Part shown: in pieces, positions 40,729 through 49,241 of the stretch
Numbering within the stretch: position 1 is the first letter of the stretch
Layout: each line of letters begins with the position of its first letter
NCBI RefSeq assembly: GCF_030758615.1
Contig: NZ_CP132381.1
Coordinates: 1,116,001-1,180,000 of the forward strand
DNA from: Gilliamella apis
GTDB taxonomy: Bacteria; Pseudomonadota; Gammaproteobacteria; Enterobacterales; Orbaceae
Direction of reading: 5' to 3'
DNA: 64,000 nt
Notes under the pieces: model-generated
Told to the model about the DNA's origin: nothing
Databases searched by the model: none
Seen by the model: only the letters and a program-made list of their open reading frames with translations
Program-made: the position numbers and the translations under genes

Positions 40729-41490
40729 TTAACTGGCAATATGTAACTTAAATGGTTGGCTTTGAAGATGTTGTACTGTTTCGATATCTAAATGGTTATC
40801 GGTGATAATATCGGTAAAACGATTAAGTGGTATGGAAGTAAATAAAGAATAAGAATTGTATTTACTGCTATCCGCAACAAGCACTACTTTATCAGCCTTT
40901 TGAGCAAATCCTGCTTTAATTAATGCTTTGTCTTCTGTTGGTGCGGTTACCCCTTTACTTAAACTCCAGGAATTACAACTTACAAACGCAATATCGGGAT
41001 TAATTTGTAGAAGTAATGAACGTCCATGTTCACCAATGCATGATTGGCTACTATCATCAATTTTACCGCCAATGATGGTTACTTCAATCTGTTTAAACTC
41101 AGATAAAAAAAGTGCAATATGCAAATCTGATGTAATGACTCTGACAGGCATTTGGGTAATTCTTTTAGCTATTTCCAAAGTTGTTGTCCCTGCATCAAGC
41201 GCTATTGAGTCGCCAGCTTTAATAAGATCGGCTGCAACATCTGCAATAAGCTGTTTTTCACTAAAATTTTTATGAATTTTTTCAGATGTAGTTGGTTGGC
41301 TAGGAATAAAACGATTTAAAGTAACGCCGCCATGTGTCCGACTGATTACGCCTTGTTGATCTAATTTAATTAAATCGCGGCGAATAGTAGCAGGAGAGGC
41401 TTCAGTAGCTATAACTAACTCTTCGACTGTGACTAAGTTATGAATCTTAAGATAATCCATGATTTGATCGAGTCGATTGTATTTTCCCAC
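40729..41490 (-). CDS. DeoR/GlpR-family regulator of the sugar-acid cluster
   Basis: A 253-residue DeoR repressor. N-terminal helix-turn-helix (LVIATEASPATIRRDLIKLDQQG near 23, split as EASPATIRRDLIKL) and a sugar-phosphate sensor domain (LDAGTTTLEIAKRI, IIGGKIDDSSQSCIG, KVVLVADSSKYNSYSLF). It is transcribed with pdxA2-like and kinase genes upstream (45 bases from the former), so it is most likely the local repressor, acting at the TGATT-N6-AATCA sites at 43862 and 43956. Inducer unknown. Confidence 0.9.
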   Translation of the reverse strand: MGKYNRLDQIMDYLKIHNLVTVEELVIATEASPATIRRDLIKLDQQGVISRTHGGVTLNRFIPSQPTTSEKIHKNFSEKQLIADVAADLIKAGDSIALDAGTTTLEIAKRITQMPVRVITSDLHIALFLSEFKQIEVTIIGGKIDDSSQSCIGEHGRSLLLQINPDIAFVSCNSWSLSKGVTAPTEDKALIKAGFAQKADKVVLVADSSKYNSYSLFTSIPLNRFTDIITDNHLDIETVQHLQSQPFKLHIAS

Positions 41491-41535
41491 TGAAAATTCC
41501 CCTTTCTATTTTTCTAAGTTTATTAATATTGTTAA

Positions 41536-42516
41536 CTAAGATAACAGTTCCGCTAATCGGATTGATTCTATCATACTATCGGCTTTTGCAATACCTTGCC
41601 ATGCAATATCAAATGCTGTGCCATGATCGGCTGATGTTCTAATAAATGGTAGTCCGGCTGCGATATTTACCCCATCATAAAAACCTAATAATTTAAGGGG
41701 AATATGACCTTGATCGTGGTACATTGCAACAACCATATCAAATTTACCTTGATGGGCTTGTAAAAATACTGTATCGGGTGCACATGGACCAATGGCATCA
41801 ATGCCACAAAGTTGCATTTTTTCAATAGCTGGTGTAACAAATTTTATTTCTTCATCACCAAACAGCCCATGTTCTCCTGCGTGAGGGTTAACGCCAGCTA
41901 CAGCAATTTTGGGCGCAGAAATTCCTACTTTTTTAAGAAAATCATCAGCAATTTTAATAACTTTTTCAATTCTATCACTACTTAATTTATCCAAAAAGTT
42001 TCTTAATGAAACGTGAGTGGTAACATGAATCACTTTTAGTGAATCAGTATAAAGTACCATAGCGACATCTTTACTATTAGTGAGCTTCGCTAACAACTCA
42101 GTATGTCCTGGATACATGTGTCCTGCTGAGTGTAGTGCCTCTTTGTTTAGCGGTGCTGTTGCAATAGCTTTAACTTCGCCTGCAAGTGCTAATTCAGTTG
42201 CTTTTTTTACACATCGATAAGCTAGATCACCAGCTTGTGGTTGAATTTTTCCAGGTTGTAATGAATCGATATCTTCCAATTTTATATCAATTATATTAAT
42301 CACATTTTTTGAGAAATCAGCCTCGTTCACGCTATTAATAACATTAAAATTAACATCGCTAAATAATCCCATTTTTAATTGTTTTTTTAATAAATCAGCC
42401 GAACCAATTACAATCGAATGTATATTTTTTACAATATCTGATTGTAGTGCTTTGACAATAATTTCCGGTCCGATTCCAGCCGGATCTCCCATAGTTATCG
42501 CTATGATTTTTGACAC
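41536..42516 (-). CDS. PdxA2-family 4-phospho-D-threonate/erythronate dehydrogenase
   Basis: NAD-dependent oxidative decarboxylase of the PdxA family. The 326 residues show MGDPAGIGPEIIVKAL at 8-23, APLNKEALHSAGHMYPGHTELLA near 128 (as APLNKEALHSAGH and PGHTELLA), the metal-site VNPHAGEHGLFG near 205 and MYHDQGHIPLKLLGF near 265. True PdxA makes vitamin B6, but here it is adjacent to a four-carbon acid-sugar kinase, the setting in which PdxA2 converts 4-phospho-D-threonate or D-erythronate to dihydroxyacetone phosphate and CO2. Twelve bases from the kinase stop, so translation is coupled. Confidence 0.9.
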   Translation of the reverse strand: MSKIIAITMGDPAGIGPEIIVKALQSDIVKNIHSIVIGSADLLKKQLKMGLFSDVNFNVINSVNEADFSKNVINIIDIKLEDIDSLQPGKIQPQAGDLAYRCVKKATELALAGEVKAIATAPLNKEALHSAGHMYPGHTELLAKLTNSKDVAMVLYTDSLKVIHVTTHVSLRNFLDKLSSDRIEKVIKIADDFLKKVGISAPKIAVAGVNPHAGEHGLFGDEEIKFVTPAIEKMQLCGIDAIGPCAPDTVFLQAHQGKFDMVVAMYHDQGHIPLKLLGFYDGVNIAAGLPFIRTSADHGTAFDIAWQGIAKADSMIESIRLAELLS

Positions 42517-42528
42517 AATTTATCTCCT

Positions 42529-43791
42529 TTAAATAAATCTTAATGCTTTTAAAAAAATATCTTTTGTTCCAAATCCACCGGCTTTAGTAAATATTTTATA
42601 ATCTAAAATTTCATGGCTTAATAATCTACCGTAAGGGACTCCTTCACAAACTTGTCCCTCGATTGTAAAACCTATCGCACCTAAAGATTTAGCAATGGAA
42701 ATAGCTACATCCCCACCAGTTAAAAATAAATTATTAAACTTTATGTTTTTAACTAATAATCCTAAACCACTACAGATTTTTTCACCTAGTTCGGTTCTTG
42801 ATAATTGATATTGTTGGCAATACAAATCGATTTTTTCTCGTTCTTGCTTATTGGTACTGGTTCTGACAATACAATGTTGATTATTATCAAGTATTTTTTG
42901 AATTTTATTTTTATATGTTATTAACGTAGTTGCTGATAGTTCTGGTAATAAATCTGATATTTTTAGATCTATTACATTCCAGTTATTATCATGTTGAATG
43001 GTATAATTTATCTGTTGTTGAGTAATTTCGCTCATTGATCCTGCCATGACTAACATTGGTTTTTTACTTAGTCTTTCTGATTTTGGTTTTTTTTCTGTCA
43101 TTGATGGCGAAAGGAATTCAACTAATCCAGCCGAGCCTACTAGTAAAACTTTATCTAGTAATCCTTGAGTTTGTTCTATAATCGTTTTTAAATCATGATT
43201 TGTTTCAGCATCGATTATGATGATCTTAGTTCCTTGAGTTGCAAAGTTTTCAATACATTTTGCTATTTGATGAGTTCTTACTTTATCTATATTGATTTCT
43301 TCACATGGATAATCTGTTTGCTGTTTTATAATTGTTTTTATATGGGATGAACAAATAGGTGTTTTAGGATCAGTGGCAAATTCGGTGTTGATTAGTTCAA
43401 TACCATTAACATAGCATTTACCATTTTTAGTAATACGATTCATATTAGGAAAAGCTGGTATAACTAAAGCAAATTTAATTTGAGTTGTTGCCAGTAATGT
43501 TTCTATTTCCCCACCTATATTACCACGCAGAGTTGAATCAATTTTTTTATAAATAGGTTGTAAATGTCGGTTATTTAAAACAACTTGCTTAATTCTATTT
43601 TGGGCTTCATGATATTCGATTGCTCTACTTTCAGTATTAACAACCATAACTTTTTTATCATTAATATGAGTTTTTAAAGGCTGTATAGATCGCCAATCAA
43701 AAACAACATCAACAGTGAATCCTTTCTTAACAAATTGTACACCAGCGTCATTAGAACCAGTGAAATCGTCTGCAATTATTAACCTTACCAT
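42529..43791 (-). CDS. four-carbon acid-sugar kinase (DtnK/OtnK family)
   Basis: Phosphorylates the 4-hydroxyl of a C4 sugar acid such as D-threonate, D-erythronate or 3-oxo-tetronate. The 420 residues (DUF1537 family) open with IADDFTGSNDAGVQFVKKG; YKKIDSTLRGNIGGEIETLL near 87 and the C-terminal nucleotide-binding LFLTGGDVAISI near 358 are the family signatures. Starts the minus-strand arm of the cluster; its product is expected to feed the dehydrogenase encoded next. Substrate cannot be read from sequence. Confidence 0.88.
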   Translation of the reverse strand: MVRLIIADDFTGSNDAGVQFVKKGFTVDVVFDWRSIQPLKTHINDKKVMVVNTESRAIEYHEAQNRIKQVVLNNRHLQPIYKKIDSTLRGNIGGEIETLLATTQIKFALVIPAFPNMNRITKNGKCYVNGIELINTEFATDPKTPICSSHIKTIIKQQTDYPCEEINIDKVRTHQIAKCIENFATQGTKIIIIDAETNHDLKTIIEQTQGLLDKVLLVGSAGLVEFLSPSMTEKKPKSERLSKKPMLVMAGSMSEITQQQINYTIQHDNNWNVIDLKISDLLPELSATTLITYKNKIQKILDNNQHCIVRTSTNKQEREKIDLYCQQYQLSRTELGEKICSGLGLLVKNIKFNNLFLTGGDVAISIAKSLGAIGFTIEGQVCEGVPYGRLLSHEILDYKIFTKAGGFGTKDIFLKALRFI

Positions 43792-48701: not shown

Positions 48702-48710
48702 TTTTATCTA

Positions 48711-48730
48711 GCCCATCAATTTTGATGGGC
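48711..48730 (+). other. hairpin between sialidase-like and YhcH genes
   Basis: GCCCATCAA (48711-48719) pairs with TTGATGGGC (48722-48730). No T tract follows, so partial termination or mRNA protection is more likely than a full stop. Confidence 0.5.
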
Positions 48731-48776
48731 AATATTAGGTTAAATATTATTTTAAACAATGTTATGGAGAGTAATG

Positions 48777-49241
48777 ATGATTGCAGGGAATATGAATTTT
48801 TTAAATCTAGCTACGTTACCAAAGTCGTTATATGATGTTCTATCTCAACCAGAAACAAGTCTGAATTATTTGAAAAGTTTAGCAGATGGTCGTTATCAGC
48901 TTGAAGGTGAAAAATGGTTTTATAATATAAATGATTCAATTACTTCACCAATTCAAGAAAGACACACTGAATTTCACAAAAAATATTTAGATATACAATT
49001 AATTTTAAGTGGTGAAGAAATTATTCGTTATAGTTTAAATGATTGTAGTTCTGAGTCATTTTTTGAAAAAAAACCAGACCTTTTTATTTTAGAGAATCCT
49101 TTATTAACAAACTCCATTCTCCTAAAAGAAGGTGATTTTGTCACTTTCTATCCAGGCGAACCGCATCAAGCACTTTGTATGGTTGATGTGCCTAAAAAAG
49201 TTCGTAAAGCAGTATTCAAGGTACCTGTTGAAATTATTTAA
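48777..49241 (+). CDS. YhcH/YjgK/YiaL-family protein
   Basis: A 154-residue cupin-like protein of the DUF386 family. E. coli YhcH (NanQ) in the nan operon is known to act as a sialic-acid anomerase; EbgC and YiaL are relatives in other sugar operons. Signature: [19 protein letters not shown] near 60 and the C-terminal [15 protein letters not shown] near 122 with likely metal His/Glu. The start is set by GGAG seven bases before the ATG at 48777 (an ATG at 48774 and an earlier one at 48759 are less favourable). Last gene of the cluster, it points to a sugar acid that mutarotates. Confidence 0.9.

Follow-up and report, generated by a model that had tools for sequence, protein, structure and literature searches.

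A divergent gene cluster of Gilliamella apis as a candidate catabolic route for Dha, a sugar acid of rhamnogalacturonan-II

What would bring the kinase and dehydrogenase of a D-threonate pathway together with genes that look like parts of a sialic-acid operon? This question is raised by a divergent cluster of eight genes in the bee-gut symbiont Gilliamella apis, at positions 40729..49241 of a 64,000-nucleotide stretch of its genome (contig NZ_CP132381.1, positions 1,116,001 to 1,180,000; "the window" means this whole stretch). An initial annotation, made from the sequence alone, had taken both groups of genes for one pathway that degrades a nonulosonic or ulosonic acid. Our answer, to which we assign a probability of roughly 0.6 (0.62), is that the cluster, under DeoR control, serves to break down Dha (3-deoxy-D-lyxo-hept-2-ulosaric acid), the C7 analogue of sialic acid in side chain D of rhamnogalacturonan-II (RG-II). 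All eight open reading frames were confirmed, three on the minus and five on the plus strand, diverging across a 182-bp gap, and each protein scored well over the cut-off for its main Pfam family; genes, coordinates, strands and divergent order agree with those given initially. The features are as follows.

40729..41490, minus strand: DeoR-family regulator, HTH_DeoR and DeoRC over cut-off, with a match in 50 of the 74 related loci described below
41536..42516, minus strand: PdxA2-like dehydrogenase, proposed to convert D-threonate 4-phosphate to dihydroxyacetone phosphate and CO2
42529..43791, minus strand: DUF1537 kinase DtnK, proposed D-threonate 4-kinase, recognized by model NF047819
43862..43877, no strand: operator-like palindrome TGATTAAAATAAATCA, with the same palindrome type in relatives
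43890..43905, plus strand: CRP-like site TGTGATCTGGATCATA, read from the sequence against what we take to be the CRP consensus
43956..43971, no strand: second operator-like palindrome TGATTAAATTAAATCA
43974..45155, plus strand: iron-type alcohol dehydrogenase (Fe-ADH), Fe-ADH and ADH_Fe_C over cut-off, proposed reductase of a C4 aldehyde-acid
45182..46060, plus strand: class I aldolase of the DHDPS family (PF00701), proposed Dha aldolase
46101..47504, plus strand: SSS-family Na+ symporter (PF00474)
47517..48701, plus strand: BNR_2 sialidase-fold protein (BNR), proposed ulosonic-acid glycosidase or related enzyme
48759..49241, plus strand: YhcH/DUF386 protein, PF04074 and TIGR00022 over cut-off, proposed anomerase for cyclic Dha

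Comparison with relatives suggests that translation probably starts near 44019 for Fe-ADH and near 48777 for YhcH, rather than at the listed starts of these frames. The genome is a single contig of 2.71 Mb, and the closest named relatives of its BNR protein are from Gilliamella.

Whether the two arms belong together was examined by scanning species genomes with short peptide patterns from one protein, BNR, which yielded 74 loci. Having been found in this way, the loci are close relatives (61-94% identical) and an uneven sample, and two of them, L025 and L026, come from one strain. The stretches reach at most 10 kb to either side, less near contig ends, and genes were counted by tblastn where the alignment covered half of the query or more, which undercounts split or frameshifted copies (L045, L069). 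SSS was present in 60 loci, Fe-ADH and DHDPS in 58 each, PdxA2 in 55, DtnK in 53, DeoR in 50 and YhcH in 49. The five core enzymes (BNR, DHDPS, Fe-ADH, PdxA2, and DtnK) stand together in 51 of the 74, with the divergent kinase/alcohol dehydrogenase order in 48 of these 51, and all eight genes are present in 30. None of the four catabolic arm genes lies nearby in 15 loci. In the genomes searched for the 15 split loci (L023 was left out), Fe-ADH was located elsewhere in 14/14 at 64-66% identity; the search that covered the split-locus genomes found no Fe-ADH elsewhere in the L052 genome. The arm places, fetched for 12 of these 14 genomes, hold DeoR-PdxA2-DtnK together with Fe-ADH-DHDPS in every case.

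When 398 genomes of the phylum were searched with a profile, 11 contained the BNR protein; ten of these were examined (the window's own and L092-L100; G222 was left out). The five core genes stand together in seven of the ten: in the window, in L093, L098 and L100 of the same class, and in L094, L095 and L097 of other classes. By eye, the carrier is TRAP-type in L098 and ABC-type in L094, L095 and L097. No kinase match was found within the examined stretches of L096 and L099, and L092 carries SSS, BNR and SDR genes only. Co-occurrence of the families across genomes was the check proposed with the initial annotation, and it came out in favor of joining the two arms, which occur together in Gammaproteobacteria and in other classes.

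The divergent gap holds two TGATT-N6-AATCA palindromes, at 43862 and 43956. In the split genomes the arm half has this palindrome in its divergent gap (12/12 fetched), and the SSS-BNR half has it upstream in 14 of 15, with none in L017. The presence of the same palindrome on both halves indicates that the two halves are one regulon. A tighter form of the pattern occurs exactly twice per genome, once per half, in 10/10 split genomes (5.0-5.9 Mb), and a reversed control gave zero occurrences in these ten; in the window genome the exact form occurs twice, both times in this cluster. As the tight and exact patterns were composed after viewing the sites, the two-per-genome count speaks for the absence of other sites and is not an independent discovery. 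No further tight-pattern site was found in the ten split genomes searched, and thus no secreted RG-II enzyme could be linked to the regulon. A looser pattern turned up a single additional site, elsewhere in the stretch, in each of two fetched arm loci out of 12 (L123, L127), and 94 sites in the 1,499,777 bases of the 74 loci, cluster sites included. The DeoR protein of the cluster, whose best NCBIfam match is YgbI at 167.2, far below the cut-off of 400, is probably the repressor of the whole cluster through these operator-like sites. Gene identities, joint inheritance and shared operator-like sites are observations, and it is well supported that the arms form one pathway or regulon rather than chance neighbors; unrelated neighbors are rejected by synteny and by the operator shared between split halves.

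Co-inheritance and the operator-like sites common to both arms also bear on the idea that the kinase arm merely recycles 4-hydroxythreonine or free D-threonate, as side metabolism of vitamin B6, and lies beside the aldolase arm by accident. This idea draws on a passage of PMC12928451 that ascribes the kinase pair of E. coli to pyridoxal phosphate synthesis, and on a DUF1537 kinase stated in part of PMC10971088 to be able to phosphorylate 4-hydroxy-L-threonine. Given the shared inheritance and sites, and since the window genome has another kinase-PdxA locus equipped with a carrier, we leave it only a very small chance. That second DeoR - DUF1537 kinase - PdxA locus (L157:3298-8059; genome 1.827-1.832 Mb) has a GntP-type carrier by eye and probably handles C4 sugar acids in free form. 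Each of the genome's two PdxA copies adjoins a DUF1537 kinase. Since the separate locus has its own carrier, the C4 acid handled by the cluster is probably made rather than imported.

Which C4 acid this may be is suggested by the kinase, which scored 461.7 bits against the NCBIfam model NF047819 for D-threonate kinase (cut-off 450), compared with 147.4 of 350 for 3-oxo-tetronate kinase and 46.7 of 700 for oxo-isoapionate kinase. An apiose/apionate route was kept low on the latter score, 46.7 of 700 bits for the OiaK model. In a PDB sequence search the best solved relative of the kinase was 4xfm/4xgj, the second of which is titled DUF1537 from Pectobacterium atrosepticum ECA3761, and the cluster kinase of L100 is identical to that solved kinase at 401/442 residues. 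We assume that one of the two entries, presumably 4xfm, contains D-threonate, and tentatively take 4xgj to be the apo form. The dehydrogenase scored 375.1 against the generic pdxA model TIGR00557 (cut-off 290.35), and its best PDB sequences are 2hi1, "4-hydroxythreonine-4-phosphate dehydrogenase 2", and 6e85, "D-threonate 4-phosphate dehydrogenase"; it would work like PdxA2, though it is not filed as an NF002891 equivalog. Action of the kinase and the dehydrogenase on D-threonate is thus supported by family, as far as sequence comparison goes. The D-threonate pathway with DtnK and PdxA2 is reportedly the work of Zhang et al. in PNAS in 2016. The window resembles it in a kinase that reaches the D-threonate kinase model and in a PdxA2-type partner, but differs in that its pair would receive D-threonate through the combined action of aldolase, reductase, anomerase and sialidase-fold protein instead of by uptake. 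The pathway is also named in part of PMC10971088.

The source of the C4 acid can be approached by counting carbons. When a 3-deoxy-2-ulosonic acid undergoes retro-aldol cleavage, it falls into pyruvate and a remainder, which is C3 from 2-keto-3-deoxygluconate (KDG), C4 from a C7 acid, C5 from 3-deoxy-D-manno-octulosonic acid (Kdo) and C6 from nonulosonic acids. A C4 aldehyde-acid therefore comes only from a C7 acid with a second carboxylate. By Fischer bookkeeping, D-lyxo Dha leads to D-threonate, one of four possible C4 acids; this outcome requires reduction of the aldehyde and so accounts for the alcohol dehydrogenase. The C7 ulosarate Dha thus accounts for every enzyme of both arms. The initial scheme holds in its general course, one pathway from both arms (with synteny and the operator shared in split genomes behind it) in which a carrier, an anomerase and an aldolase pass a C4 part to the kinase and PdxA2; it gave no reason for the alcohol dehydrogenase and no source of a C4 acid, both of which a C7 ulosarate supplies.

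The substrates named in that scheme, a nonulosonic (C9) or Kdo-type (C8) acid, fail on this count, as their cleavage yields C6 and C5 sugars and no C4 acid. The SSS carrier, the YhcH protein and the sialidase-like protein do look like parts of a nan operon, described with its NanQ/YhcH anomerase in part of PMC8141875, and the DHDPS-family aldolase adds to the likeness. The window genome differs from such operons in having no NanE and in proteins that fall short of the NanA and NanQ models, so that we consider a pathway for these acids highly unlikely. NanE (PF04131), the one searched among nanK, nanE and nagAB, gave no match in the whole 2.71-Mb genome (0/1). A nan-type route is rejected on the same evidence. 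YhcH scored 106.5 against NanQ (NF040884, cut-off 160) and 109.2 against the YhcH/YjgK/YiaL subfamily (TIGR00022, cut-off 45.5). Together with the sialidase fold, it points to a cyclic 2-ulosonic acid. The other YhcH-family gene of the genome (L001:1468-2936) has a different neighborhood, with what by eye is a gene for a PfkB-type sugar kinase next to it.

The aldolase falls below the cut-off of every curated aldolase equivalog model: it scored 123.9 and 145.6 against the NanA models TIGR00683 and NF003164 (cut-offs 382 and 281), and 189.8 against DapA, TIGR00674 (cut-off 206.15). A plain DapA, named at the outset as an outcome that would undo the scheme, is rejected: the housekeeping DapA, which is the best DHDPS-family match of the genome and has the DapA motifs, is encoded at 1.218 Mb (L077), and judged by its model score the cluster aldolase does not appear to be one. 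It does keep the DapA motif Y-N-x-P-x-R, in which its Arg140 corresponds to DapA Arg138. The latter, we assume, holds the carboxylate of aspartate semialdehyde, which is itself a C4 aldehyde-acid. The position is Arg in 52/52 aligned cluster aldolases from the 74 loci, in the genome's own DapA, and in L073, L099 and L100; the genome's two paralogues other than DapA have Asn and Leu there. The Fe-ADH reached no NCBIfam equivalog (lactaldehyde reductase, 231.8 of 523.15; 4-hydroxybutyrate dehydrogenase, 206.8 of 500).

These results also leave some room for a 2-keto-3-deoxy C6 acid, which the aldolase would split to pyruvate and a C3 aldehyde for reduction by the alcohol dehydrogenase, DtnK and PdxA2 serving a co-occurring C4 acid. 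The aldolase's distance from every curated equivalog would allow this, and elsewhere in the window genome (L079) another DHDPS-family gene lies beside an Fe-ADH gene and an MFS carrier, which shows that the pairing is used for other acids. We find a C6 substrate quite unlikely: the two arms form a single regulon in distantly related taxa, the cluster aldolase keeps the DapA Arg that the L079 paralogue is without, and a sialidase fold and an anomerase are hard to fit. The order of steps proposed for Dha has a parallel in the galactarate/glucarate route GarL-GarR-GarK, which consists of retro-aldol cleavage to pyruvate and an aldehyde-acid, reduction, and phosphorylation. The aldolase-reductase-kinase logic is the same; the window differs in its protein families, in a C7 instead of a C6 substrate, and in the oxidative decarboxylation by PdxA2 at the end.

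Carriers and neighboring genes give further indications of the substrate. A CitMHS-type carrier was present in 10 of the 74 loci, and SSS was missing in all ten; one representative scored 84.3 against its Pfam model (cut-off 31.9) and 60.9 against a DASS model (cut-off 198.6). Replacement of SSS by CitMHS hints at a di- or tricarboxylate substrate. L055 and L073 have a TAXI/TRAP-type carrier set (binding protein PF16868; permease by eye). GH28 genes, of the pectinase family and without an evident signal peptide, occur in 12 of the 74 loci (two representatives called by Pfam, the rest by similarity), upstream of SSS in seven, next to DeoR in three and after SDR in two, and also next to DeoR in one of the 12 split arm loci (L123). 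Twenty such genomes, picked in the knowledge that 12 had GH28 nearby, hold 22 GH28 genes in total, with 16 of the 20 having any. In the window genome there are one GH28 gene and two UxaC genes. Close relatives of the BNR protein are encoded in, among others, Pectobacterium, Dickeya, Erwinia and Pantoea. To our knowledge, Dha is the sole acid of its kind in a common polysaccharide. Gilliamella species are reported, in part of PMC11822680, to use pectic glycans.

The GH28 neighbors, which point to pectin, and the standing of Dha among polysaccharide components count against a variant in which the same route serves a different C7 3-deoxy-heptulosarate, derived from some other glycan of plants or bacteria: the C4 epimer of Dha, for instance, which yields identical products, or a lactone or unsaturated form. 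In its favor, C4 stereochemistry is lost at cleavage, so that D-threonate does not fix the C4 configuration of Dha, and the set is found, whole or in part, in members of Pasteurellaceae (Actinobacillus L006, Necropsobacter L007, and Conservatibacter L020). On balance we hold this variant to be unlikely.

For Dha itself, we infer the substrate and the aldolase, alcohol dehydrogenase, anomerase and sialidase-like steps as follows. Dha would enter the cell free or bound to galacturonate, and the sialidase-fold protein, probably cytoplasmic, would most likely release it there from imported oligosaccharide. YhcH would open the ring, and the DHDPS-family aldolase would split C3-C4 to give pyruvate and 2,3-dihydroxy-4-oxobutanoate, which Fe-ADH would turn into D-threonate. 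DtnK would then form D-threonate 4-phosphate, to be oxidized and decarboxylated by PdxA2 to dihydroxyacetone phosphate.

Several observations weigh against this proposal. The BNR protein passed the fold test for a six-blade propeller, models on six-blade sialidases as a single domain, and retains Tyr358, Arg222 and Arg315. The GH33-type Tyr-Glu nucleophile pair, Asp acid/base and Arg triad were not found in it: profile alignment to NanB/NanC places His206 at the sialidase Glu, which we take to be the catalytic one in those enzymes, and this His is the same in all 37 aligned sequences (remote L055 paralogue left out). By motif comparison the first Arg presumably reads Asn33 and the Asp perhaps Glu56; PDB sequence searches aligned mainly the middle part of the protein, and these outer positions therefore come from motif reading. 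With His206 for Glu and an apparently lost first Arg, the protein may not be a glycosidase. PdxA2 falls short of the D-threonate 4-phosphate dehydrogenase model NF002891 (551.4 bits, cut-off 583), and the kinases of L093-L095, L097 and L098 are just 23-25% identical to that of the window. At the position of Arg140, L093 has Lys, and each of the five loci L094-L098 has Val or Ile; the aldolases of these five belong to another subtype, with about 26% identity to that of the window wherever BLAST gives a value. Arg140 had been expected to be universal, which the other-class aldolases contradict. Only some of the arm genes are present in eight of the 74 loci, and PdxA2 is kept without an adjacent DtnK match in L030, L032 and L099, where the kinase may be lost, moved or replaced. 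An SDR-family gene follows BNR/YhcH in 51 of the 74 loci (e.g., L027:11572-12252); it is absent from the window and has no role in the scheme. GH28 neighbors are confined to Pantoea/Erwinia-type loci, with none near the window cluster. TGATT-N6-AATCA occurs three times in the whole window against 0.37 expected, a count that one shuffle in 100 also attained; the third of these sites falls within another gene.

Among the closest known systems is RG-II degradation in Bacteroides, where, in the account of PMC6811678, the GH143 Dha hydrolase is bimodular and has its active site, a Tyr-Glu pair, on a five-fold propeller. A sialidase-like propeller aimed at Dha is what we propose for the window as well; the BNR protein differs in its six-blade sialidase relatives, its single domain and its His for Glu, and GH143 was not recognized among its sequence matches or the 50 fold matches listed. 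The GH143 account in that source, as far as its relevant part goes, does not follow free Dha further. In the open-licence literature we found, among the matches listed, no described Dha catabolic route; PMC6353982 and PMC6854810 contain "heptulosaric acid" with "aldolase", yet in the passages concerned name Dha just as an RG-II component. We would give about even odds that this is the first complete intracellular Dha pathway and that its aldolase specificity, its aldehyde-acid reductase and its family of cytoplasmic sialidase-fold enzymes (a Tyr/His instead of a Tyr/Glu pair) are all new. It would then occur in bee-gut symbionts, in Enterobacterales associated with plants, in Proteobacteria of other classes and in about one-fifth of complete E. 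coli genomes.

In E. coli, 1044 of 5426 complete RefSeq genomes match an Escherichia sp. cluster copy at 90-95%, 1043 of them over at least 80% of the query. In one E. coli genome dtnK and D-threonate 4-phosphate dehydrogenase are already annotated, with an extra TerC-family gene. Region GR 6 of E. coli BEN2908, the cluster between nagE and glnS, has these genes too, along with a CitT-like carrier; PMC12928451, a paper of 2026, also notes a similar sialidase-dapA-adh cluster of S. meliloti, and its account of GR 6, in the part concerned, differs from ours in giving no substrate or pathway. RG-II is a conserved part of the plant cell wall, and enzymes that cut it are known. If the Dha route is real, it explains a gene cluster of these 1044 E. 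coli genomes and of many plant-associated bacteria, provides a marker of dietary niche, and corrects "sialidase" and "vitamin B6" annotations. It would also offer enzymes to make and measure Dha, standards of which are lacking according to a passage of PMC12168206.

Related clusters show additional genes. A TerC-family membrane gene lies between aldolase and BNR in L152 (8491-9249), L044, L047, L048, L056, L065, L068 and L071, clusters of E. coli, Klebsiella and Kluyvera type with a CitMHS carrier. In L015, L016, L046, L051, L059 and L060, a D-2-hydroxyacid dehydrogenase and an MFS carrier near the galactonate type stand between aldolase and SSS. Lonepinella koalarum (L055:16297-21096) has a remote BNR_2 paralogue, clipped by the stretch end, near another DHDPS-family gene and, by eye, a tripartite-carrier-like set, which suggests a parallel route in the same species. 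In the window the cluster is preceded by PbpC-like and NDK-like genes (by eye) and followed by an amino-acid-type ABC system; from their appearance, these do not look like part of it. Further upstream, positions 7836-14554 resemble an L-ascorbate (ula) cluster, with UlaG-like, UlaR-like DeoR, UlaA-like PTS and UlaE-like genes recognized by eye.

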